NCBI GenBank assembly: GCA_964036295.1
Contig: OZ038463.1
Coordinates: 23,671,069-23,735,068, forward strand
DNA from: Plumapathes pennacea
Taxonomy: Eukaryota; Cnidaria; Anthozoa; Antipatharia; Myriopathidae
DNA: 64,000 bases
Direction of reading: 5' to 3'
Shown: positions 4,998 through 50,803 of the stretch, one piece after another
Numbering within the stretch: position 1 is the stretch's first letter
Layout: each line of letters starts with the position of its first letter
The notes under the pieces: generated by a model
Database searches by the model: none
What the model saw: only the letters and a program-made list of their open reading frames with translations
Told to the model about the DNA's origin: nothing
Made by a program: the position numbers and the translations under genes

Positions 4998-6730
4998 GAT
5001 AAGCAAAGCAGCAAAGGCTTGCTAAAGACAGGGAACGCAAGAGAAATCGTTCTAAAAGTGAAACTGCTGAGAAGCAAAAAAAGCTTCAATCAGATAAGCA
5101 ATACAGAAGAAATAAGTGTAAAAGTGAAGCTCCTGAAAAAGCTGTGCCGAATGAGCCAAGTACTTCTTTTGAAAAAAAAAAAAAGGAAACTACCTGTGAG
5201 TCAAGCAGAGTACCTCAAAGAGTTCAATGTGCTCAGTCATGGTCCAACCCATGAACAAGATTAGGCCAACTCTAACATTAACAAATTCCACCAAGTGATT
5301 GAGTTTGGTATTAATCAGTGTACAATTTGTAAAGAGGCTTGGCCATTCAAATCAAAACCTAGGTCACTAGACACTTTCATCTGCTCACGATGTACTGGGG
5401 ATAAGAAATTTCTGAAGAAATTTTCAGATAAAAATCCTGATTCCTTCTCCAATCCCACCTCAGTTACAAGGTTTGATTCAAATAGAAGAGATATTGATTG
5501 CTCATGCTCTGCCTATAATGAGAGTAGTACTATTCAGATGCTGTAATAAATCAACTCTCTGCTGAATACCCAATGTCTTGGCCTGCAGTTGAGGATCAGC
5601 CATTGAATGAATATCAAACACCACACCTTGCTACTATGGCATTTCCTACACTATTCCCTGATGGTAAGGGAGACCCAATCAATCTGGCATTGCTAAAAGT
5701 GTTCCTCTCCAAGAGCGAATTAAGCATCTCATAAAATTTGCTGAGAAAATTGATGGTAAATGGGAAAATCGGTTTGCCAGCCATCCCAGGTTTTCATATT
5801 GGGCTTTGGATATGATTCAGAGAAAGAGAACTTTGCAACAAAGTGGGATATTTCTGAAACAGAATCCAGGTGAAGCACATCTTACAATTGATGAATTTCG
5901 TGAAATGGCTGCAAGTAATAATTCTACTGCCTTTATGTCTACAGTGTCCAGATATGTTGTTATTATTGCTGGCTCAAATGCTTATTGGCATAAGGTGAAA
6001 GAAGACCTTAAAGCTATAATAACAAGTGTTGGAACACCAACATTGTTCTTCACATTTTCATCAGCTGACATGCATTGGCCAGAACTTCATTCTCTGTTTG
6101 GAGACAACAGCAGTGAGGTCAGACGACAATATGTCATCAATAATCCACATGTTGTGGACTGGTTCTTCACTCAGAGATTAGAGAGATTCATAAAGTACTG
6201 GCTGTATAATACCCTTGATGCAAAATGGCACTGGTTTGGGTATGAATACCAAGGTAGAGGTAGTATACACTGCCATGGCACTGCTAAACTAAAGAATGAC
6301 CCAGGATTGTGTGAACTCACTGAGACTGTTTTGAAAGGTTTCTTGGCACAAAAATATAAAGATTACCATAGTATAGATACAACAGAACTAGACAAGGATA
6401 TTGAAACTGGCAATAAAGCTGCTGACACAGAATGTCAGTATGTTGATTGGTTGTTATCAACTGTTAATCCAAACCCACCAGAAGAAGGTATGTGGATAAG
6501 GCCACAAGTGCATCCATGTCAGAAATCGTATAAAGACATCCCTAATTCAGAAGTAGATTCTGACTACATAGATCTTGAATACAGTTCAGCGCCATACTCG
6601 TTGTAGTAATAACTATTGTCTGAGAAAGCACAATGAATCTGATTTGAAATGTAGGTTTCACTTTCCATTCGAACACTGTCCACAGACAAAGTTAGAATTT
6701 GAGCAAGTTCACAAACTTGGGCAAAATCGG
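4998..6730 (+). pseudogene. Helitron RepHel fragment (N-terminal region and HUH replicase), frameshifted
   Basis: Relic of a rolling-circle Helitron protein. From 4998 a Lys/Arg-rich frame (LAKDRERKRNRSKSE) leads into a CTICKEAWP...CSRC zinc-like region (about 5318-5390). Then come [19 protein letters not shown] (about 5615-5670) and a long clean frame at 5806-6606 with [16 protein letters not shown] (about 6040) and [12 protein letters not shown] (about 6245). The last is the HUH (His-x-His) metal site of the rolling-circle endonuclease. A second frame continues with [12 protein letters not shown] (from about 6590) to LEFEQVH. Homology stops near 6725, before the catalytic tyrosines and the Pif1 helicase. 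At least three frame breaks are visible between 5230 and 5810. The element is dead and 3'-truncated. Confidence 0.85.
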
Positions 6731-17790: not shown

Positions 17791-17846
17791 AACGTTTCAC
17801 TCTGTTGTGCATTTGTGTTGTTGTTGCGACATTTTGGCTCAGTGCC

Positions 17847-18867
17847 ATGAAGATCAAACAGGCAGCAGATAACATGGCGTTATTATTTGAAAATTGGAAC
17901 ATGATTGAAGAAGTGGTCGTTGGTAGATCTCGCTTTGAGCAGTTCTATTGTATTCCCAGTAATGTTTATGTGAAAGAAAATCGAACTCGTCCAAGACGAA
18001 GTCGTGAGCCAAGCCGAGTGCCTATGAATGAACTTTCGCGCGTCCTGAACAAGGACAGGAAAAGCAGGCGACTATTACGAGAATACATTTCAAAGAATGT
18101 CCCAAAGTCGTCAAAAGTTCATGATTATACCAGAGCTTACGTACTTCACAATGCTAATGCATTCCGTGAACGTGCGCGTAAACAACATGGAAACAATAGA
18201 AAGCCACAGAAATGCAAAGAGAAAATTAGGATCAATAAACCATCGCTGCGAGAAAGCTATAAGTTCAAAAAGAAGTTTGTCAAAAGTAAACGAGGTGCTA
18301 AGGTACGTTTGTATTTTAGAAGGACTTCAAGGACAAGCATTTCGAGACCAGCTGTGTTCAGAGATAGAAATCACAAAATCAATTACTACGCGTTTTCTCT
18401 GTCAAGGGATATAGAAAAAAATCCTGGTCCTTCAGTTGTCGATCCAAACAAAACGATCATTGCACCATACAGTCAAAGTAATGCTGCAAAATTTGGAGAT
18501 AATGCTGGACGACAATGTATAGCTATGTCTCTAGCAGCTGTCATATTTAACCACACGATTTTATTTCTTTATCAGAGGATTTCAGCAAAATTATGAATGC
18601 TGGGAACAATCTGTATTCCACTCTTTCGCAATTATCTAAGGACTATTTTTTTTTGCTGACAGATCTACCTGGAATGGTCACAATATGAAACTCAGTATGA
18701 GCTGCAATACAGTGAAAATTACGTGGGTAATTTGTTTGGAACTTGCTTTCCCATCGAAGGCTTTGCTTACTGTACAACACTGACTGGAGCTTTTAATTTA
18801 TTGCTCAGACAGGATTTCAGCTGCTTTATTCTGACAATAGGCTGTAGTACTGTAGCTGTATTTTGTT
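17847..18867 (+). pseudogene. 2A-containing protein with cysteine-protease-like region, 5' half
   Basis: Start chosen at ATG 17847. The N-terminal 180 or so residues are very basic (KDRKSRRLLREYISK, RKQHGNNRKPQKCKEK). At 18408-18431 lies DIEKNPGP, an exact match to the 2A consensus D-V/I-E-x-N-P-G-P. At 2A sites the ribosome skips a peptide bond, so the product would be two proteins. After it, YSQSNAAKFGDNAGRQCIAMSL supplies a candidate nucleophile Cys of a papain-fold protease (OTU-like or tegument-USP-like; inferred). Frameshifts lie near 18570 and 18680. The frame then runs to AVFC at 18865, where a large element interrupts it. It resumes at 25145. Confidence 0.65.
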
Positions 18868-18891
18868 CTCAGGCAACTTAAGGCATGGGTC
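18868..18891 (+). repeat. Left TIR of the 6.28-kb element
   Basis: 24 bp beginning CTCAGGCAAC and ending CATGGGTC, the exact reverse complement of 25121-25144. Sequence inside the two ends shows no further pairing. Confidence 0.9.
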
Positions 18892-19416
18892 TGGTACGAA
18901 AAATTGGAAATTATAGCAATAAATTACTTGAAAATCCATAAAAAATCGCGTTTAGGTGCGAATTGGCTAATTTTTTCCCTGTAGAAACAAAAGTTCAGGC
19001 TCGTCATTTTGTGCTGGTCAAGTAACCTGATATCTGTCACGTGACCAACCCTTAAGGAGAATAGTGACGTGTAAAACAAGGTTATCTTTTGGCTATCGGG
19101 AGGACTGCACAATCACCTGTGAAACAGTTCTAACCTATGTCAATATAAGAAGATTAGGTTCGTTATCACTGTTCCAATTCGAAAATTTAGACTTTTTATC
19201 ACTAACCTTGTTTAAGGCACTGAAATCGCATAATTGCATCAAATTTGCTTTTATTTGGTACGGTATAGCGCTTATGAGACAGTTATTTTAATATTTCGGA
19301 TTAGCAGTAGCAATTTCGAGTGTTTGGGGATATTTAAGGAACAGAAATATTAGACAATAATGTTTATAAGTAACCCTCCCACTCGAAAATAGAGTCGCAT
19401 GCTATTTCCTCTTCTC

Positions 19417-19540
19417 TGGCCGCCATGTTGGAAGATAAGCCCACTGTGAGTACGAACTCAAACCAGCGGTTATCTTGTTAAGACTAAACGAACCAATCAA
19501 AACGTTGTTTTGGCCACAGCAAAGATGGCGGATGTGTGGA
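19417..19540 (+). promoter_or_regulatory. Promoter-like leader with YY1-type sites
   Basis: GGCCGCCATGTTGG (19417) and AAAGATGGCGG (19523) match the YY1-type GCCAT motif in opposite orientations, upstream of the first coding exon. A similar CGGCCGCCATATTG occurs near 25025 at the other end. Such sites often mark TATA-less promoters. Role here is inference. Confidence 0.35.
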
Positions 19541-19872
19541 GGACGAAGACTGATGCTCGATCTACGCGACATTTCTCCAGTACGCGCTTGTAAAATATCC
19601 CGATCTTCACTCGGAGATGGGAAAGAGGCTGTTTACTGTCCAGGACTGAGACTTAATGTGTGTTACAATGAGGTAAACTGAAATAAATAACGTGGACTAT
19701 TCTTATTGCGATCAGACTCTGAATTTTCGTCTTTCGTGTATACTTGCATATTCCCGCCTTTTTGCTAATTCATTTGGAATTATTTGGCACCCGCGTTCCC
19801 AAATAGAGTATAGAGTACGATTTGCGCGCCTAAATTTTGTCTTAGCGCAGAATACGTCCGTTAAATCTCGTC

Positions 19873-20591
19873 ATGTGCAGAACGTTTTTGGATCCAAAAA
19901 CTTGTGGCTTTGCAAAGGTAGTTGCTATACATGCAGCCAAAGCAGCAAGGGCATTGAAAAGAGCAGAAAATGAAAACAACACGGAATTTGGCACCCGGTC
20001 TTTACAGGAAAGATTCAAAATCTTCAAAGATACATTTACGTTGAGAGCAGAATCGTTTGAAATGGACTTTGCCGAATTCAATCTTAAGTTTGCTGCTCTT
20101 CAATCGGGGGTTACCAAGTGGAGTCCAAGAAAAAAAGAAGAAAAACAACGCTACCTGGATGTGTTTTCAGTCGAGAACTGGAAAAAGCTTTCTGAAGCCA
20201 AACAGAGGGAACACACATTATTTGACTGCAAAGGATGTCACCAAACCTATCCAGACGTGCAAGCTTTATTTCCAGTAAGGTCTCCACGACTACAGAAACG
20301 AGCCAAGGAGAATCCCTTTGTCAAAACGAGGGAACTGGCCAAGGGAATGACAACAAAGCTTCTAAACAAAAGTCGGATCAAAGAAACTGCCAAATCTCTG
20401 TACGACAGCATAAATCCTGTGTTTCAAAGTGTGTCTGGTGGCATTTCATTTGCTGAAGCACTCACTAAAGTCCCTGACACAAACCTGGAAATGAAAAAAA
20501 GCAATGCTGAGAAAAAGGCTGCAAGAAGAAGCATATTGCGAGAAGTCAAGGAGAACATAGAGGGACAATGGCGGAACACATCTCTCATCAG
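19873..20591 (+). CDS. Candidate transposase, coding exon 1
   Basis: ATG 19873 follows an in-frame TAG at 19843, so it is a plausible true start. It encodes 239 codons plus two bases, ending ATCAG before GTAATT. The region is rich in Lys/Glu and includes FDCKGCHQTYPDVQALFP (about codons 117-134; a C-x2-C pair that may be half of a zinc site). A low-complexity helical C-terminal part follows. Codon use is less AT-rich than the neighbouring relics. No catalytic motif lies here; it is likely an N-terminal DNA-binding or dimerisation part. The split codon AG/A joins exon 2 in frame. Confidence 0.65.
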
Positions 20592-21110
20592 GTAATTAAC
20601 ATAATTACAACTGATGAGAAGCCACTGGGGAAAGATCACTTCATTTTATGTCACAAGTGGCAGATAAAGGAACACCTATAGCACATGTATATATTCAACA
20701 AGTGCATATACATACATAAAGACTATAACTGTAATATATTATAACACAACCACCATACATGTATGCTAAACATATGCATACAGCATACAAACAAAACAAC
20801 ATCATAAATGAAAGTTACATTTATTACATACATACAAACTTGATGTACCTGCATGACTGTATAATTCTGTTACATACAGTTGTGAATGAAGTCATGAAGA
20901 AACATTCATTAATGGAATAAAATAGTTATTACTAAGAACAGAAAAAAGATATGCAGTTTTCACAATTGTATAAATTATAATATTGTAGTGCACATAACAA
21001 GGCAATAAAAAAAGTTGGAGAATAAACACAAAACAGGATTTAGTATATTTCACATGCGTGCAATGACAGTAGTTTGTATATTTATGAACACATAAATCCT
21101 TTTTTGGTAG

Positions 21111-21505
21111 ATGCATGGGCAACCGGCAGTCATTCAGTGCACGGCAGCGTGACAGAATTGCCATGTCCTTCGAGAGTGGACCAGCAGCCAAGGTAAGAAA
21201 GGAATTAAATGAAAAGACTCCAGAAACAAAAAAGGACCATACAGGCAACATCGAGAAAATGATCTTGGACAAGGAAGGCCTCAAAGCTGAAGTTAATGGT
21301 TTTGAAGAATCCACCCAAGTAAACTGGAGTGCTCTGGCCAGGAGGTATAATGTTGTGAACCAGAAAGGAGAGCCAGCCAAGAATGGTGGACAAATCATTC
21401 AGGAATTTCTTAACAAAGAGGGGATAAACATCCAGCGATTTAAGAGGAGACATGACGAGACAGAGGAGCCAAGGCTCAGGAGAAAGAAACTGCGAGGAAT
21501 CGGGG
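21111..21505 (+). CDS. Candidate transposase, coding exon 2 (HTH-like)
   Basis: Acceptor TTTTTTGGTAG at 21110 and donor GGTATGT after 21505. Phase 2 in and phase 1 out match the neighbouring exons, so the frame is continuous through both introns. It contains ARQRDRIAMSFESGPAAKV and then NWSALARRYNVVNQKGEPAK and NGGQIIQEFLNKEGI, which look like a helix-turn-helix (WSALARRYNV as first helix and turn, GQIIQEFL as recognition part). The tail is very basic (RFKRRHDETEEPRLRRKKLR). Probable DNA-binding segment, inferred from composition and pattern. Confidence 0.65.
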
Positions 21506-21732
21506 GTATGTAAAAATACTACATATAATCTACTGATGTTGATATATGTACATGTAGCTAATGGATGATTGACATGTACTGTCATAATCTGACAAACTAC
21601 AATATGTTACATGCAATAAAAAACTATGGAAACGAACACTGACATGAATATGACAGTCAGCAAAATAATTAAGACATATGGCAGTTCTATGCAATTACGT
21701 ATCCTGACTTTTGGCATTGTTTTAACTCATAG

Positions 21733-24539
21733 GAGAAATAACAATTCCAACACCACAGACCAATGATGACCTCAAAAAAGACCTGAAGCTGCGAATTCAA
21801 AATGGCGAGTACACAGTGGGTGAACGTATTGTCCCGAGAAGGTATGAAAAGCTTGTCATCGACATAGAGGGAAATGTAAAGAGGGAAGAATTTGTAGTGG
21901 AAGGACGAAAGAGGCCTCTGGATGAAATTCGCAGAAAAACCTTGACGAAGCACAAGAAATACATCAGGAAGTATGCTGATAAGCACTATGATGAGATGAC
22001 CCGGCTTGCAGTGTCAAACAGGCTCAGTGAACTTGGTGAATTGGATGATGGGGAAGGGCTGACAATGATGAGAGAGAAGCTAAAGAAAATTGAAAGGCAA
22101 AGACATCTTCTGGTGTGGCACGACCATTCCACTGTGGCAAACCATGGCCATATAGTCTTCATGGTCTCCTCCATTTACGACCCTGCATTCTACCTCACAC
22201 CAGCAGAGTATCACCAGATGACCGGCCAGTGGGTAGATGTTCAAATAGAGGTGGAAAAGCCTGACATCTACATTGTGGGAAGGTGTGCCAGCAGTGATGC
22301 TGAGCAGCTGGCCTACATAGAAACCAGATGTGACTGCCTCGAACAACTCGCCAATCACATAGAAGTCTCACCTGGCATCCCAGTCTGTGACATAATGAGA
22401 TTCTTCAAAGGTGATGGTCCAGCTGTGGCTTTCGAGACTGGGCAGCAGAAAGGAGGCCACTTTTTCTGTTCTGTTTGTGGCATGCATGCTGCCATGGGGG
22501 ATGATTTGGACTATATGTTTAGATGCAAACATCGGTCACTGGAGGAAAAACAAAAGGTCATCCTTGCAGGTCCATTTCGCAAGCGGAACTCTCGTTTGGG
22601 AAGGCCAAAACCACTGAAAGGAATGAAGAAAGATGAGTTGATGGAGGAGCTGGAAGGAAGAAGACTTCTTGGAGGGGTGAAAAGCATGAAAAAGGTTGAC
22701 CTGGAAAGTGAGCTCACATATGAGCTACGTGGAGTTCAGCGTGTCCCAGCCTTGCTTTACTCCAACCCACAAGCATCTCTGGAAAGCCTTGGCCTGGGGT
22801 CTTATGAAGCCCTTCCATGTGAGCCTATGCATGACCTGTCCAACCACATCTCTAACCTCCTGGAGGAGTTGCCCAAGCACCTCACTGGTGAACAGAAGAG
22901 GACATTTGATGAGACTTGGGAGCTTACCCTGGGAGACAAGGAAACCAAACGAGCATGTGACTACCGATCTGCCATCATCATGTTTGCCAAGAGGTTGAGA
23001 GGGCTTCTGACAGAGACATTACAGACACTTCTGGATACCCTTGTGGAGATGGAGCAAGTACTGTACTCTGAAGACTGCAAGAGATGCCCCCGCCTCATAC
23101 TCAGGTATCACAATGTCAGCTTCCTTCACTTTGCCATGTGTCACCTTGAGTTTGGTTCAACACCTTTAGCACAGAGTGCCAGAAAACTGTATGGGAAATA
23201 CCTCCACAACCTTGTATCCCATGAGCCCATACAGCTTCGCCTAATATCTGGTCAGTCCTCCAATGCAGAAAATGAAGAACGAATCTTCAATGCTATCAAA
23301 GGAATCACCAATTCAACCTCAAGTTACAAACCAGGCCATGTTATCACAAATGTGTTCCTGAGGCTCCAGGCTGAAGAGCAACTTAGTATACATCAACATG
23401 CACACACAGAGCAGCAAAAGCAACAGAGCAAAATCACCAAACTTGCTGCAACTCTTCCAAAGTTTGGAAACACCAAGGTGCCCAGCTGGATTCTGGATGA
23501 TAAGGCAAAATACAACAAATGGTGGCAAGCTCATCTGGAACGAATTAGTGACTTTCTGTTGCCAGGGGAGGGAGTATGGTGGAAGTACAACCAGGTGAGA
23601 GGAGAGGTAGAATTCTTCGACTCAGATGCTGAACAAGACGTGCACAGTGAGGGCCCCATTCTTCACCATTTTCGATCTTCCAACTTAAAGAAAGAAGAAG
23701 AATACCTTGCTCGGTGCTGGAGTGAGTGCATTCAACAGAACCTAACAGTTCCTGCCCACTTCCTCAACATACCTGATGGAAATGGCAAAGTTACACGATT
23801 TGTTACCAACTTTCTTGAAGAAGATATTGGTGACCAGCAGCCCAATGAAGATCCAGTTGTGAGCGAAATTGAGGGAGGACTATCTGACAACCAAGATGAA
23901 GAAATGGAAGTCACAGTGCTTGAAGTATCCTTGGTCCAGGATCAAGTACCTGACTTGGGTTGTGATGAAATCCAAACAGCCCAAACTGTGGACCTACAAC
24001 CTAACTACGCTGCAGAAACAGACCCAAACACCATGGAAAACTGTTCTGAAACGCACCCTGAAGCAAATATTTCACAGTCACAACAACCATCTCACCTCAA
24101 TGAAATGCCTTTGACATGCTCAATCCCTGTCACATCTCCACAACCAAATCAAACTGAAATGGATAATACAGAAACATCAGCTCCTGGTCAGCAACACCAC
24201 ATATCTACACGACTTGGCAAGGCTGTACAAATTGTACTTGGAGCAACAGACAAAGTCCTGAAGTTTGATTCTGCCCGCTGTAATCTGAAGAGAACACCAA
24301 CTAGCAAATATGCAATTGAAAAGTACAAAGATAATTTAGCACAGATCCAGACACAAGTGCTGACACAAAAGGGACTCATAAAGAAACAACTTAAAGATTG
24401 GGAGAAGGAATTCTTCCTTCAACATGACTGCAGAATGGCTACAGTAAAGGAAATGAAAAGCAATGAACTAGCTTCGAAGTTGTTGAATCAACTGAAGTAC
24501 TGTGATGCCCTACTGAAAGAATGGAAAATTAAATTCTAG
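21733..24539 (+). CDS. Candidate transposase, coding exon 3 (core)
   Basis: Acceptor TTTTAACTCATAG at 21732; 935 codons to TAG at 24539. Landmarks: LLVWHDHSTVANHGHIVFMVS (HDH at 22119), FFKGDGPAVAFE with Asp at 22413, then GGHFFCSVCG (C-x2-C), a SAP-like helix pair (KGMKKDELMEELEGRRL, about 22617), EPMHDLSNHI (about 22823) and SSNAENEERIFNAIKG (Glu at 23268). The D / GDGP / ENEE order fits an RNase H-fold DDE enzyme. The triad is my proposal, not an established one. The C-terminal 250 residues are acidic, then a helical tail. No stop or frameshift occurs, unlike nearly every other transposon gene in the window. The same HDHS/GDGP architecture recurs, to my memory, in uncharacterised anthozoan proteins. 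Confidence 0.65.
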
Positions 24540-25120
24540 AATGCTATCAGAGGAAACTGATCCACATAAGTGTCAATCGACTGCTATTTTAAAACTAACC
24601 GGTCATATTTATGTGCTTTTATTTATGTGCTTTGTGCATCCTCAGATCAGAATTTTTTATGTATTATAAAGACGTTGCACATGAAAACAATGAAAATTTT
24701 CATTATCCCAGCACTTGGCATCACTGTAAATAAATATTTATAAAGCCCAGATTAAGCAACACAATATTAAATACGCCATTGTTTACCCCGAGAAATGCAT
24801 TCAGTACAATAACAAGTTTATAGTGTGCTTTTCTGAACGATAGCGAGTACGCGAAAATTACGCCATTCGAATTTCAAACCAGTAAATTGAAATATACTCA
24901 CCTAAACACCCCTCCATATGATTTCAGCCTCCATACGGTGCATTTCACAAAACACATCCACAGCATCTAACCACAAGTTTACAACGAAAGTGGATAATTT
25001 ATACTTTGGTGCGGCTCTCCCGATCGGCCGCCATATTGTCTGATCTCCCGTGTTTCCAATGGCAACGTGAGATTGCCTCGTTTTAAATATGGACTTCGCT
25101 GGGGGGCATTTTTTAATCTC
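24540..25120. other. 3' trailer of the 6.28-kb element
   Basis: Contains AATAAA-like poly(A) signals near 24730 and a YY1-like CGGCCGCCATATTG near 25025. The minus-strand ORF at 24902-25165 begins beyond the TIR and is judged a chance frame. Confidence 0.5.
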
Positions 25121-25144
25121 GACCCATGCCTTAAGTTGCCTGAG
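25121..25144 (-). repeat. Right TIR of the 6.28-kb element
   Basis: Exact reverse complement of 18868-18891. Confidence 0.9.
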
Positions 25145-25748
25145 TTTGTCAGGTGGCAGGTTCAAAGTATTTGATTCTCATAGTAGAGATAGTTTTGGCA
25201 CGGAACATCCTGAAGGAAAATGTGTATTAATTGAACTTCGTTCAGTTGGCAATTTATTGGAATATTTCCAGACTTTATATGTACACTTGCCTGCCATTAC
25301 ATTTGAAATTAAAGGAGTAAACATTTGTCTAACAGAAGACAGACACAACAGGCACAGATGTGAAGAACCTACGACTGTTCAGCAAAGAAGTAAAGCAATT
25401 ATTTGCAAATGTAAGCAGTGCTGTGCAATTTCTTTCTATAGCATTTGTTTCTCTGTAATTAAATCTTGCAGCTATTGGAATTCTGATACATTAAGTGCTG
25501 TAATTGAAAAAGGTAACACATTTTACAGGAAAATGAATGTTGACAAACACCTTGTGATAAGTGATTTACCAAATAAACTAGAGATATGTGCAGGCACTGA
25601 TGTTAATGTTGTCTTTACTGCTAAAAGACAAGGAGTTCTGTCTAAGGACAAAAGTTTAAGCAAGCAGAATCTTCATGAACTTATTACACAAAACAGTAGG
25701 AATAATACTGGCTTTCTGTTGCCAGCTGACAAAATAACATGTGTATAA
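25145..25748 (+). pseudogene. 2A/protease-like protein, 3' half
   Basis: Directly after the right TIR the frame reads GGRFKVFDSHSRDSFGTEHP, with FDSH as candidate catalytic His/Asp partner of the Cys at about 18510. KCVLIELRSVGNLLEYFQTLY and a C-terminal domain with FYRKMNVDKHLVISDLPNKLE follow, to a stop at about 25746. The two halves were one ORF before insertion. An arrangement of basic N-terminus, 2A and protease fold occurs upstream of Helitron replicases in some invertebrates (recalled, not checked). A Helitron-type fragment is present at 63166. Confidence 0.6.
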
Positions 25749-27408: not shown

Positions 27409-27477
27409 CACCACGTTAATAAAAGTGAATGATTCATCTAGCGCTTCAAATGAACGTTATCCGAAATGAAAAACGCT

Positions 27478-27716
27478 ACCGACCACTTACCGACCAAACC
27501 TTTCACTTTACCGACCACTTACCGACCACATCATAAATCTTACCGACCACATACCAACCACTTACCGACCATGTTACCGACCACGCTACCGACCACGTTA
27601 CCGACCACATACCGACCACATACCGACCACATACCGACCACATACCGACCACATACCGACCACTTACCGACCACATACCGACCACGTATACCGACCACTT
27701 ACCGACAGTTCAACTT
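27478..27716 (+). repeat. ACCGACCAC array, right, about 19 units
   Basis: The best-kept part (27598-27690) is an 11-bp ATACCGACCAC tandem. Unit edges vary (TT, AT, GT, GC before ACCG). Open frames of THR/PTT-rich peptides on both strands come from it. Confidence 0.9.
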
Positions 27717-27774
27717 GTTCACAATTACCTAAGATCAGACTACACGAAAAAAGGAGAAATAGGCTGAGTGCAAA

Positions 27775-36041: not shown

Positions 36042-37853
36042 TGAGGAAGATATTGCCCAGGATGCAGTCACAGAACAGGACTATCAACCTGACTCTGGTG
36101 AATATAGTAGTAATGCTGCAGGTGGTCCTGTTGAAGGCGGTGCTGCTGAAGGCAGTGATGCTGAAGGCAGTGATGCTGAAGGCGGTGATGCTGAAGACAG
36201 TGACGCTGATGGCAGTGATTTTGATGGCAATGTTGCTGAAGTTGAAGTTGGTGGTGCTCGTGGTCGTGGTCCTGGGGCTAGGCGTGGAGGTGGTCATGGT
36301 TGTAGGGGTAGGCGTGGAGGTGGTCTTGATCGAGGTCGAGGTCGAGGTCATGGTCGTGGTCTTGGCAGAGCAGGTGGGCAAGCTGACCCAGAAGACAACG
36401 AAAAGGGTTATAATTATCCTGATGGTAGGAATGTCTTGCCAGATTTTGCACCCAATCGTCCTCCTGGGTTGCATTTACCAAACCAATTGCTCAGAAATAC
36501 AATGACAACTGCTGTAGAGTTTTTCAAATTATTCTTTACAGTAGAAATGATTGCTTCTAGCATACTAACACCTATGCTTATACCCATGTTGGAGCAGGTA
36601 ACAAGCAATACTACACTAGAGCAGATGGTAGCTGGCCTGAAACTTTTCCAGAGGAAATTTATAAACTTATTGCTTTGCAAATTTACTTTGGTCTTGTTCG
36701 TGTGAGTTCTTCTGACAGGTACTGGGGCACGAAAACACTTTATCATGGTTTGTGGGCAAGAGCCATCCTGTCCCGCAACAGGTACAAAGCTCTTATGGCC
36801 ATGTTACACATTGTTGATCCATGAGATGAGGAAGGAGGTGGTAAATTGCGTAAAGTTCAGGCTTTTGTTAGCTATTTCAAAACCAGGTGTCTAAGTTTGT
36901 ATCAACCGTACCAAAATGTTGCTGTGGATGAGCGAATGGTAAAGTCGAGGCACAGGTCTGGTATCTGACAATATATCAAAGATAAACCAACCAAATGGGG
37001 AATCAAGCTTTGGGTTTTGGCCGATAGTGCGAATGGTTATACTTGTGATTTTGACATTTACATTGGTAGGTCTGCAGGGAGGGACGTTAGTCAACATGGT
37101 CTGGGATATGACATTGTTATGAAACTGATGCAACCTTTTTTCAACCAGGGTTACCACTTATTTTTTGATAATTTTTATACTTCATTTCAACTTGTTAGTG
37201 ATTTGTTTCAGCGTGGAGTGCCTGCAACTGGAACCGTCCAGGAAAACCGTGTAGGATTCCCTGACTGCCTCAAGAAAGGAAAGGAGTGGGCAACTCGTAG
37301 GATGAGAGGGGCTATGCACTGGGAGAGAATTCCACCAGTCCTTGCCTTGCAGTGGAAGGACAACAAGGTAGTGTCTTTACTAACAACGATTGACCATTCC
37401 AATGATTCTGTTCAGGTTATCAGGAAAATAAAGAGGAACAACATCTGGGATGAGATTGTGGTACCCCAACCTCAAACCATCAAGCATTACAACTTATACA
37501 TGAATGCTGTTGATCGGTCAGATCAAATGTTGGCTACCAACAATGTTCTTAGGAAATGTATGCGATGGTGGAAGACTTTGTTCTTCCACCTCATTGACAT
37601 AGCAATTGTTAACAGCTATCTGCTTTTCAAGGAACACAGAGCCAATAATCCAGACGTCGAAGCTCTTCGAAGGCCACAGTCATACTCCCTTCTGGAGTAC
37701 AGGGAAGAACTTGTAAGACAACTTGCTGGGCTTGCTGAGTATGATTTGCCTCCTACAGATTCCAGGGTTCGACCTGCACATGAATTTGAGACTGTCCACA
37801 TGCCTACGTACTCAGGTAAGGAGGCAGTGCACAATCTGTTACAAGCATGGTAG
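36042..37853 (+). pseudogene. piggyBac (DDE_Tnp_1_7) transposase, two stops and one frameshift
   Basis: An acidic N-terminus of AEGSD repeats (36145-36235) and an RG-rich stretch precede NRPPGLHLPNQLL and FFKLFFTVEMIAS. A frameshift near 36552 changes frame to NTYAYTHVGAG and WPETFPEEIYKLIALQIYFG, then YWGTKTLYHGLWARA and LHIVDP. Next come VAVDERMVKSRHRSG (first catalytic Asp) and KLWVLADSANGYTCDFDIYI (second). The clean frame 37017-37853 has HLFFDNFYTS (third Asp) and YNLYMNAVDRSDQM. Stops at about 36821 and 36967 are both TGA where family members have CGA, consistent with CpG decay. The C-terminal Cys-rich finger (37885-37950: CSAPQCGVYLHP) lies past the stop in another frame. Confidence 0.85.
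36130..36240 (+). repeat. 15-bp minisatellite coding (AEGSD)n
   Basis: GATGCTGAAGGCAGT-type units in tandem within the acidic N-terminus of the piggyBac protein. Confidence 0.8.
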
Positions 37854-48559: not shown

Positions 48560-50803
48560 ACCAAGCAAAAAACAGCTCTCGTCAGGTTTTGGAGAAACCG
48601 AGATAACCTCAGCTTACGTGACGAAAAATTGTTCTTCCATGACAAAGCTATTGTTAAGGAATCTGATGTCAGAGGCATCGTGAAACAGACATTCAAAGCT
48701 ACGAAGGGATCTGGGACAGGAAAACTATACCATAGGCTGAGGGAAAACTACAGTGGTGTTTCGGAAAGGGAGGTGCAGAAATCTTGCTGAAGTCATCTGT
48801 TCATCAGAGGTTGAATGCCAGATTCCAATACAAGGCAAGACTACGACCAGTACGAGCTCGCGCCGTTCAAGTTCGTCATCAAATTGATCTTATTGATATG
48901 TCGAACTTGCAAACAAAATGGAAAGGAAAGGTCTTCAAATATGTGCTATCCTTAATCGAGGTATTCAGTCGCTATCAATGGCTTTTACCTCTGCATCGAA
49001 AAAAAAGCACTCACATTGCGCGAGACCTAATTGGTATCTATACTGAACATGGGGTACCCAAGGTTCTACAGCACCACCAAGGTCCAGAATTTGATGGCGC
49101 AGTGACAGCTTTATGTAAGAAGCTCAAGATCAAAGTCATTAAAGGCCGTCCCTACCATCCTCAGTCACAAGGAAAAGTGGAGAGAGCACACAGATCCTTC
49201 AGGAAGAAAATTATGTATGACTTTCTTGTCATGAAAAAGGCTGGAGTTAATTGGGTTAAACGACTGCCAGAATACGCAAGGACATTAAATCAGGATGCAA
49301 AAGAAGAACTTGCATGGAAATCTCCTTTTGAAGTGTTTTATAGACGTAAACCAAATAACCAACACTTCTCAAGTAATACACTACAGCAAGAATGGGCTCT
49401 TGATTCTGGCTCGTATCAGAACTTAGTAACTCCACGACCTAATGACTATGTCACACATGAGCACAATACCCGTAAAATCCGGAGTTCTGCTGTCAAAGCG
49501 ACAAAAAAATGTGAAGAACGTATGATTTCTCGTGGTCTCCGAAACAATCCACCCTCAAAATATAGTGTCGGTGAGACAGTTCTTATCCGCTATCCTTCAG
49601 CAAAGAAAATCGCAAGCAAAAGGCACGTTTTGAAGGCTAATGTTATCAAAAGAAACTTGAATACATTTAAGTACAAAGTGGCATTCAAGTTACCGAAGTC
49701 GGGTACTAAAGTGGAAAAGTGGATTTCCGTCAATGATATAACAAGTCTCACAATGGAACTGGAAAAAGAGAAGCAAAAGGCTAAAAGCCGCTCTGTGAAA
49801 AATAAGAAGCTTCACCGCAGAAAATATTTACAGCTGCACGAAAATGAAAGAGATTTGTTTGAAAACCGCTCTACTGCCTCACATTACTCAATCACCTATG
49901 ATCCACCAAAAGACGGTAATTGTCAGTTTGCTGCAATTTCCCATAAGCTACAAAACATAGGCATCCACAGATCGCCCAAAACTTTGCGAGATGAAATTAT
50001 ATTTTATCTTCAAGGAAACCCAAATAACGTTGACGGGATACCCCTTGAACTATTTGCTGGTATGCCATGGTGTGAATATCTGTCTGGTATGTCCTCTAAT
50101 GGTACATACGGAGACCACATTACTCTTCAAGCTGCATCCAACCTCTTCAACGTTGACATTATAGTACTCTCTACTCTTGGACCGGGGGCTACAGCTGTGA
50201 TTTCTTCAGGGACAGGAAGCCCTGCTGGCGTGCTTGTTTTGGGACATTTTGCGGAGGGTGCCAGAGAACATTATGTATGCCTCGAAAATACTAATTACTC
50301 TATGTCTGATTATGAAACAATTGAAGGCGAGGAATCCCGTTCACATCAGCCGATTGAAACTGCCATGAGTCATCAAGAGTTCACATATCCATTTAATAGA
50401 CGGAGACGTCGAATACAGCAGCCACACAGGAGACCGGATGCAATAACACTAACATAGAGAGGTATAATTATATCCTTAATGAAGATGTGCTGGAGGTAGT
50501 GATACAAACAACCCTAAATCTGCACCCTTGCATGCGTCAAACACTGCGTGCTGTTTCTAGAATCTTTAGAAACATTGTTGACCGGCAACCACTCCCCAGG
50601 ATTCATATTCCCGACTTAACAGAAGTACCAGACTTGCGCAGGGTGAGCATGCGGCGGATCATGAAGTTAAAAGGCAAGAGCAGCGGTGTGGTGCTTCAAT
50701 TACGGCAACTAATAAACTCTGTAAAATGGATCACAGCCTGGTTCAGTTTGTTTTACACCAGTAATGGATGGTTTTTAATTAAAAAAATTTACTGGAAGGA
50801 CCA
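48560..50803 (+). pseudogene. Ginger-type transposase: integrase plus OTU protease, frameshifted
   Basis: An N-terminal piece (48560-48780: VRFWRNRDNLSLRDEKLFFH) joins after a shift near 48781 to the integrase core: VRHQIDLIDMS (first Asp), VLQHHQGPEFDG (His at 49075 where the second Asp is expected) and SQGKVERAHRSF (Glu). An SH3-like region follows (YSVGETVLIRYPS, about 49561). Then a Lys-rich linker and an OTU domain: DPPKDGNCQFAAISHKL (nucleophile Cys) and REHYVCLENT (His). After a shift near 50445, a C-terminal part (LNEDVLEVVIQTT, LPRIHIPDL, WFLIKKIYW) runs to 50803. An INT core fused to a C-terminal OTU is the published hallmark of Ginger1 DNA transposons. TIRs and CCGG/CCGT TSD were not found. 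Confidence 0.75.

Follow-up and report, generated by a model that had tools for sequence, protein, structure and literature searches.

The 64,000-nucleotide stretch of the Plumapathes pennacea genome analyzed here (contig OZ038463.1, positions 23,671,069 to 23,735,068), hereafter referred to as the window, contains a complete DNA transposon of 6277 bp that is bounded by terminal inverted repeats (TIRs) and carries a three-exon gene for a candidate transposase with an Asp-Asp-Glu (DDE) core. No second gene is seen inside the element, and an Rfam scan of positions 18600–25400 gave no match. The features of the element are collected in Table 1, in which the residue numbers are positions in the 1306-amino-acid protein; relatives found elsewhere in the genome are designated by L numbers.

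Table 1. Coordinates of the transposon, its target site and the predicted functional features of its product
Feature	Position	Strand	Basis
Complete DNA transposon, 6277 bp	18868..25144	+	Inverted ends, gene, copies, empty sites
Target site duplication TT, left copy	18866..18867	.	Flank reading, empty paralogues
Left TIR, 24 bp, perfect	18868..18891	+	End comparison
Coding exon 1, 719 nt, ATG start	19873..20591	+	Frame; position common to L043
Coding exon 2, 395 nt	21111..21505	+	Frame; position common to L043
Coding exon 3, 2807 nt including stop, DDE core	21733..24539	+	Frame, alignment
First D, D501 (WHDHS), predicted catalytic	22122..22124	+	4/4 rows covering; 9/10 tblastn rows
Second D, D598 (FKGDGPA), predicted catalytic	22413..22415	+	7/7 rows covering
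C(2)C, C616/C619, counterpart of RAG1 C727/C730 (ZnC2)	22467..22478	+	8/8 and 7/8 rows
Stretch homologous to the L060 SAP domain, inside the catalytic region	22611..22727	+	Homology; without a SAP match of its own
H737 of [M/L]H (CEPMHD), counterpart of RAG1 H795	22830..22832	+	8/9 rows
H(4)H (HNLVSH), H862/H867, counterpart of RAG1 H937/H942 (ZnH2)	23205..23222	+	9/9 rows
E883 (NAENEERIF), predicted catalytic, counterpart of RAG1 E962 by E-to-F spacing	23268..23270	+	9/9 rows
Right TIR, 24 bp, perfect	25121..25144	-	End comparison
Target site duplication TT, right copy	25145..25146	.	Flank reading, empty paralogues

The element, its copies and its target site

The two ends, which begin with CTCAGG, are 100% identical over 24 bp, as stated in a preliminary description of this DNA, and 84% identical over 37 bp. 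Within the 290 Mb of genome searched for copies, the 24-base end was found, with up to three mismatches, at 14 sites as opposed to none for the reversed pattern, and can therefore be considered specific for counting copies. Eight of these sites bound four complete elements located at four different places (the window, L039, L042 and L043), all having CT..AG termini, and the other six are single; the expectation that further copies with the same ends would exist was thus borne out. A shorter, 10-base end (CTCAGGCAAC) was discarded as a copy counter, being too common (375 sites vs 235 for its reversed pattern).

The element is flanked by TTTTGTT on the left and TTTGTC on the right, and the joining of these flanks minus one TT restores an open reading frame (ORF), in agreement with the earlier claim that the insertion had split an older ORF. 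The joined flanks (500 bp) match, over their full length and at 98%, at least 40 places in the genome (40 scored of 179 candidates); in the two empty sites that were read base by base (L065 and L066) the sequence TGTATTTTGTTTGTCAGG runs uninterrupted through the insertion site, so that the duplication is exactly TT. A two-base difference in length between the joined flanks and the genomic empty sites was considered as a sign that no duplication had occurred and was rejected, being due, in the two sites read, to an AT insertion or deletion elsewhere. Since the duplications of the other elements having both ends are AG (L039), TT (L042) and TG (L043), a duplication of 2 bp is found in four cases out of four. 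The interrupted host repeat (17805–18596 and 25145–25748) is itself multi-copy; a 2A-like DIEKNPGP peptide is encoded by its left ORF, the reading frame of its right side (25145–25748) runs on across the insertion, and some pieces of its copies lie within open frames of more than 1000 codons.

The nearest copy, L039, lies at a Kimura two-parameter distance of 2.6% from the window element and L042 at 5.2%; both have large internal deletions, the window element being the only one without them among the three both-ended copies of its subfamily. The suggestion that the family has been recently active is only moderately supported, the nearest copy being 2.6% away and two of these three copies having large deletions. 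A difference of 23% between L039 and L042 was taken as a misalignment around the deletions and the figure was not used. Relatives, many of them decayed, are numerous: the window protein matches 59 pieces of the genome with at least 30% identity, and a distant relative (L060, 36%) used as query matches 57. Two truncated copies, L040 and L041 (C1:13272500-13293500), are nearly identical, oppositely oriented and separated by about 9.4 kb, in an arrangement that resembles an inverted duplication. Furthermore, three nearly identical defective relatives lacking the DDE core (L046, L047 and L048) occupy three places on a single contig (C4), which suggests a segmental duplication.

The gene and the conserved residues of its product

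The gene has the structure attributed to it by the preliminary description (719 + 395 + 2807 nt, about 1306 codons): both introns have GT..AG borders, the frame contains a single stop and the product is 1306 amino acids long. L043 displays the same ends and the same exon layout (722 + 407 + 2771 nt), its frame being intact over 1299 codons (1299 amino acids) and its exon 3 being 69% identical to that of the window; since both the window and L043 genes are open, two of the four both-ended elements have intact genes. Over the 917 exon-3 codons compared between the two, the nonsynonymous and synonymous substitution rates (dN and dS) are 0.203 and 1.80 by NG86, 0.207 and 1.73 by YN00, and 0.195 and 1.02 by LWL85, with a dN/dS ratio of 0.11–0.19 depending upon the method and with dS near saturation. 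Because dN, as computed, is far below dS, the protein was under selection.

The core was aligned in nine rows, corresponding to the window protein and eight relatives. None of the rows that span the three acidic residues proposed as the active site has lost them; on the other hand, in the looser rows obtained with tblastn the first D is kept in nine cases out of ten, being replaced by A in the damaged copy L039. The second D (22413) and the E (23268) are located where the preliminary description had placed them, whereas the first D, correctly assigned to HDHS, has its codon at 22122 and not at 22119. In addition to these residues, a further E, three residues past E883, is kept in eight of the nine rows and F889 in all of them, and the [M/L]H motif is MH in the window and LH in L060 and L061. 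Taken together, the conserved residues make up the pattern of the CMC/RAG1 group: D, D, C(2)C, [M/L]H, H(4)H, E.

The comparison with mouse RAG1 was made using the residues that we take to be D600, D708, C727, C730, H937, H942 and E962, and the RAG1 sequence from the PDB has the matching letters at all these positions. The order and the rough spacing of all the catalytic and zinc residues are shared with the RAG1/Transib core, as is an F six residues past the E. Indeed, the D–D, D–C, C–H, H–H and H–E distances are 97/18/118/125/16 in the window, 108/19/65/142/20 in mouse RAG1 and 91/19/78/132/20 in L057, one of the EnSpm/CACTA copies of the same genome. The EnSpm/CACTA copies (L057–L059 and L064) share with the window protein the distance between the second D and C(2)C (19 vs 18, the value of 19 being found also in L059 and L064), the PMH motif and the pair of H preceding the E. 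When the columns of the core alignment were permuted, the ordered pattern was reached in 24 of 200,000 cases with loose spacing limits and in 14 of 1,000,000 with tight ones.

The extra length between C and H (118 vs 65 and 78) is occupied by the SAP-like stretch. The Pfam SAP domain is matched over the cut-off (2.3e-7) in L060, in the equivalent position after C(2)C and before [M/L]H, this being the only such case among the eight homologous stretches tested. SAP is the best match, albeit below threshold, in L043 (0.013), L062 (0.042), L056 (0.052), L054 (0.13) and L061 (0.14), and is absent in the window stretch and in L052. The excerpts of the literature searched do not mention such a module within the DDE core of the CMC/RAG1 clade, although it may still have been reported.

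Affiliation of the element

According to the excerpts of the published work on which this and the following comparisons are based, the CMC or CMCT clade, whose members are EnSpm/CACTA, Mirage, Chapaev, Transib, Plavaka, ESTA, Lanisha and RAG1, is characterized by two motifs located after the second D and before the E, namely C(2)C and H(3-4)H, by target site duplications of 2–5 bp and by termini that are mostly 5′-CA..TG-3′ (Kojima 2025, PMC12730594). Chapaev transposases are recognized by C(2)C, LH and H(4)H, their elements having duplications of 3–4 bp and invariable CAC..GTG ends (PMC4079192), and in RAG1 ZnC2 and ZnH2 together build the zinc site, whereas H795 belongs to the active site (PMC7204232). 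The window protein shares with the clade the D, D, E triad and, in the interval from the second D to the E, the C(2)C, the H and the H(3-4)H, and the 2-bp duplication found in all four elements of its family falls within the range of the clade (PMC12730594). The statement of the preliminary description that the protein could not be matched to a named superfamily holds insofar as no family is matched by sequence; the kind of transposase is nevertheless recognizable, C(2)C, [M/L]H, H(4)H and E being the published CMC/CMCT signature (PMC12730594, PMC4079192). The element is therefore probably an autonomous cut-and-paste transposon encoding a DDE transposase and belonging to an unnamed lineage of the CMC/Transib/RAG1 clade. 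It looks like a branch without a name within an already known type of transposon, because it has the residue pattern of RAG1 and CACTA but no named family that was tested fits it.

Indeed, the CT..AG ends and the 2-bp duplication fit neither EnSpm, nor Chapaev, nor hAT, and by the features tested the element is not a mariner either, since Tc1/mariner elements duplicate TA as opposed to the TT, AG, TT and TG of the window family. From Chapaev, with which it shares C(2)C, H(4)H and, in L060 and L061, the LH (MH in the window), the family differs by its 2 bp and CTC..GAG as compared to 3–4 bp and CAC..GTG, and the window protein by its 1306 amino acids and three exons vs 556 amino acids and two exons in the silkworm element (PMC4079192). 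Unlike EnSpm/CACTA, the window protein has another layout and no Transposase_21 match. Unlike RAG1/Transib, it has no RAG1 Pfam match, and the element has a single gene. The duplication of Transib is 5 bp long, compared to 2 bp in the window family. A further difference from the clade is the SAP-like module in the catalytic region, which is not mentioned in the excerpts of PMC12730594. The lineage would stand apart from those named families of the clade with which it was compared (EnSpm, Chapaev, PlavakaA, ESTA and RAG1/Transib); the family is undescribed in the excerpts of the literature searched (which include PMC12730594, PMC4079192, PMC7204232, PMC10045372 and PMC3706591), a search that did not cover Repbase/Dfam. 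Similar proteins may be present, without a name, in corals and anemones.

Several results weigh against this affiliation. The termini of the family, CT..AG in four cases out of four, differ from the CA..TG prevailing in the clade (PMC12730594), and no significant sequence match connects the window protein to any of its members. When the whole protein and seven exon-3 sequences (from the window and six relatives) were scanned against Pfam, no model, including the RAG1 profile PF12940, was matched over the cut-off, the best match being the unrelated mIF3, below cut-off, with an E-value of 0.011; a scan of the genome with PF12940 also gave nothing and is uninformative, as the controls gave none either. 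A PDB sequence search with the 427-amino-acid core found no match, and one with the exon-3 profile only two matches, with E-values of at least 1. The permutation figures given above are a guide only, because the spacing limits were set after inspection. In hhalign comparisons, the nine-row core scores 21.9 with RAG1, which is a weak result, since shuffled sequences score 16.3 ± 2.7 and 13 of 300 are at or above this value (1 of 60 in another shuffle run) and reversed RAG1 gives 18.9. RAG1 has the top score among the nine single templates, piggyBac scoring 14.1, but an integrase ORF of the window (19.8) comes above the four single EnSpm sequences (15.2–19.2). The EnSpm profile scores 17.4, a value reached by 21 of 60 shuffles. 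When a smaller alignment (A1) is used, the top-scoring match to RAG1 (21.8) is out of register and EnSpm L057 is not matched at all. The positive control itself, EnSpm vs RAG1, is reached by 51 of 60 shuffles, so that this profile test lacks power, and its scores by themselves prove nothing. The register, on the other hand, speaks partly in favor of the affiliation: of the two local RAG1 matches listed by the unguided nine-row comparison, one places H(4)H on H937/H942 and the other C(2)C on C727/C730, and the second D falls on the second D of EnSpm L059, L064 and the EnSpm profile, with C(2)C also aligned in L064 and in the profile; two of the four single EnSpm sequences are thus aligned at the second D, L057 and L058b being out of register.

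What other origin could the element have? The weak or negative profile tests would be accounted for if it were a DDE transposon outside the CMC/RAG1 clade (e.g., hAT-, P- or MuDR-like, or an independent superfamily), in which C(2)C and H(4)H belong to other, local zinc sites. Indeed, the conserved C-x2-C-x2-H might form a local zinc finger together with one more C, and both the C-x2-H overlapping C(2)C and the ERxF after the E resemble what we take to be hAT motifs, a likeness that also speaks against a place within the clade. Such an origin is nonetheless unlikely: P and hAT elements have duplications of about 8 bp (PMC3706591) and not of 2 bp, and all five zinc and active-site residues, together with the E, follow the order and spacing of RAG1 and EnSpm. 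It is also rather improbable that the element belongs to an already named family of the clade (EnSpm, Chapaev, Mirage, Plavaka, ESTA or Lanisha) no longer betrayed by its sequence, an explanation that overlaps with the preferred one as far as the mechanism is concerned and differs from it in the naming. The presence of Chapaev's C(2)C, LH and H(4)H in the element speaks in its favor (PMC4079192), but Transposase_21 (PF02992) is matched in none of eight scans of the element proteins in spite of 23 matches over the cut-off elsewhere in the genome, and neither Chapaev, nor PlavakaA with its TGT..ACA ends, nor ESTA with its TA duplications fits the element by published description (PMC12730594, PMC4079192). 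A host gene lying by chance between inverted repeats, or a domesticated transposase, would explain the intact gene and the purifying selection on exon 3. This is scarcely credible, considering that the insertion interrupts one copy of a repeat having at least 40 uninterrupted copies, that elements with both ends lie at four different sites and that many decayed relatives exist; the empty sites already contradict it. Finally, scans of viral and prokaryotic contigs detected no relative, and a viral or bacterial origin is therefore without support.

If the element is an autonomous transposon of the CMC/Transib/RAG1 clade, as we infer, a mechanism can be envisaged in which D501, D598 and E883 would bind metal ions, C616/C619 and H862/H867 would form a split zinc site clamping an insertion domain onto an RNase H core, and H737 would act as H795 does in RAG1. 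DNA would probably be bound by the N-terminal exons and by the SAP-like stretch of the insertion domain. The transposase would cut at the CTCAGG termini and join the ends to a pair of phosphates that lie 2 bp from each other in the target, which would give rise to the 2-bp duplication; excision may proceed via hairpins formed on the flanks, as is the case with RAG1/Transib.

It is from this clade of transposases that RAG1, by which antibody genes are assembled, is descended. A branch that is intact and unnamed, and that has an end sequence of its own, a 2-bp target cut and a SAP-like module within the catalytic insert, would offer a new point of comparison for the rise of the split zinc site and of the insertion domain, and could serve as an outgroup when Transib and CACTA are placed; should the element correspond to a family listed in Repbase, it would be an ordinary one. 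More tentatively, the CT..AG ends, the 2-bp duplication and the SAP module built into the insertion domain might define a separate superfamily, standing beside EnSpm, Chapaev, Mirage and Transib within the RAG1 clade and adding an independent branch to the origin of RAG1-type transposases. Because no Pfam model covers the protein, relatives may conceivably sit unnamed in other genome annotations.

Other features of the window

The window also contains remnants and ORFs of other kinds: a decayed EnSpm/CACTA (Transposase_21) piece with three stops at 2201–2584, a Helitron_like_N ORF of 266 amino acids at 5806–6606 and a piggyBac-type DDE_Tnp_1_7 ORF of 278 amino acids at 37017–37853. A 557-amino-acid ORF at 48784–50457 has an OTU cysteine protease domain over the cut-off and an integrase-like (rve) match below it, and a short ORF of TTYRPH-like repeats at 27466–27732 is probably a tandem repeat array.

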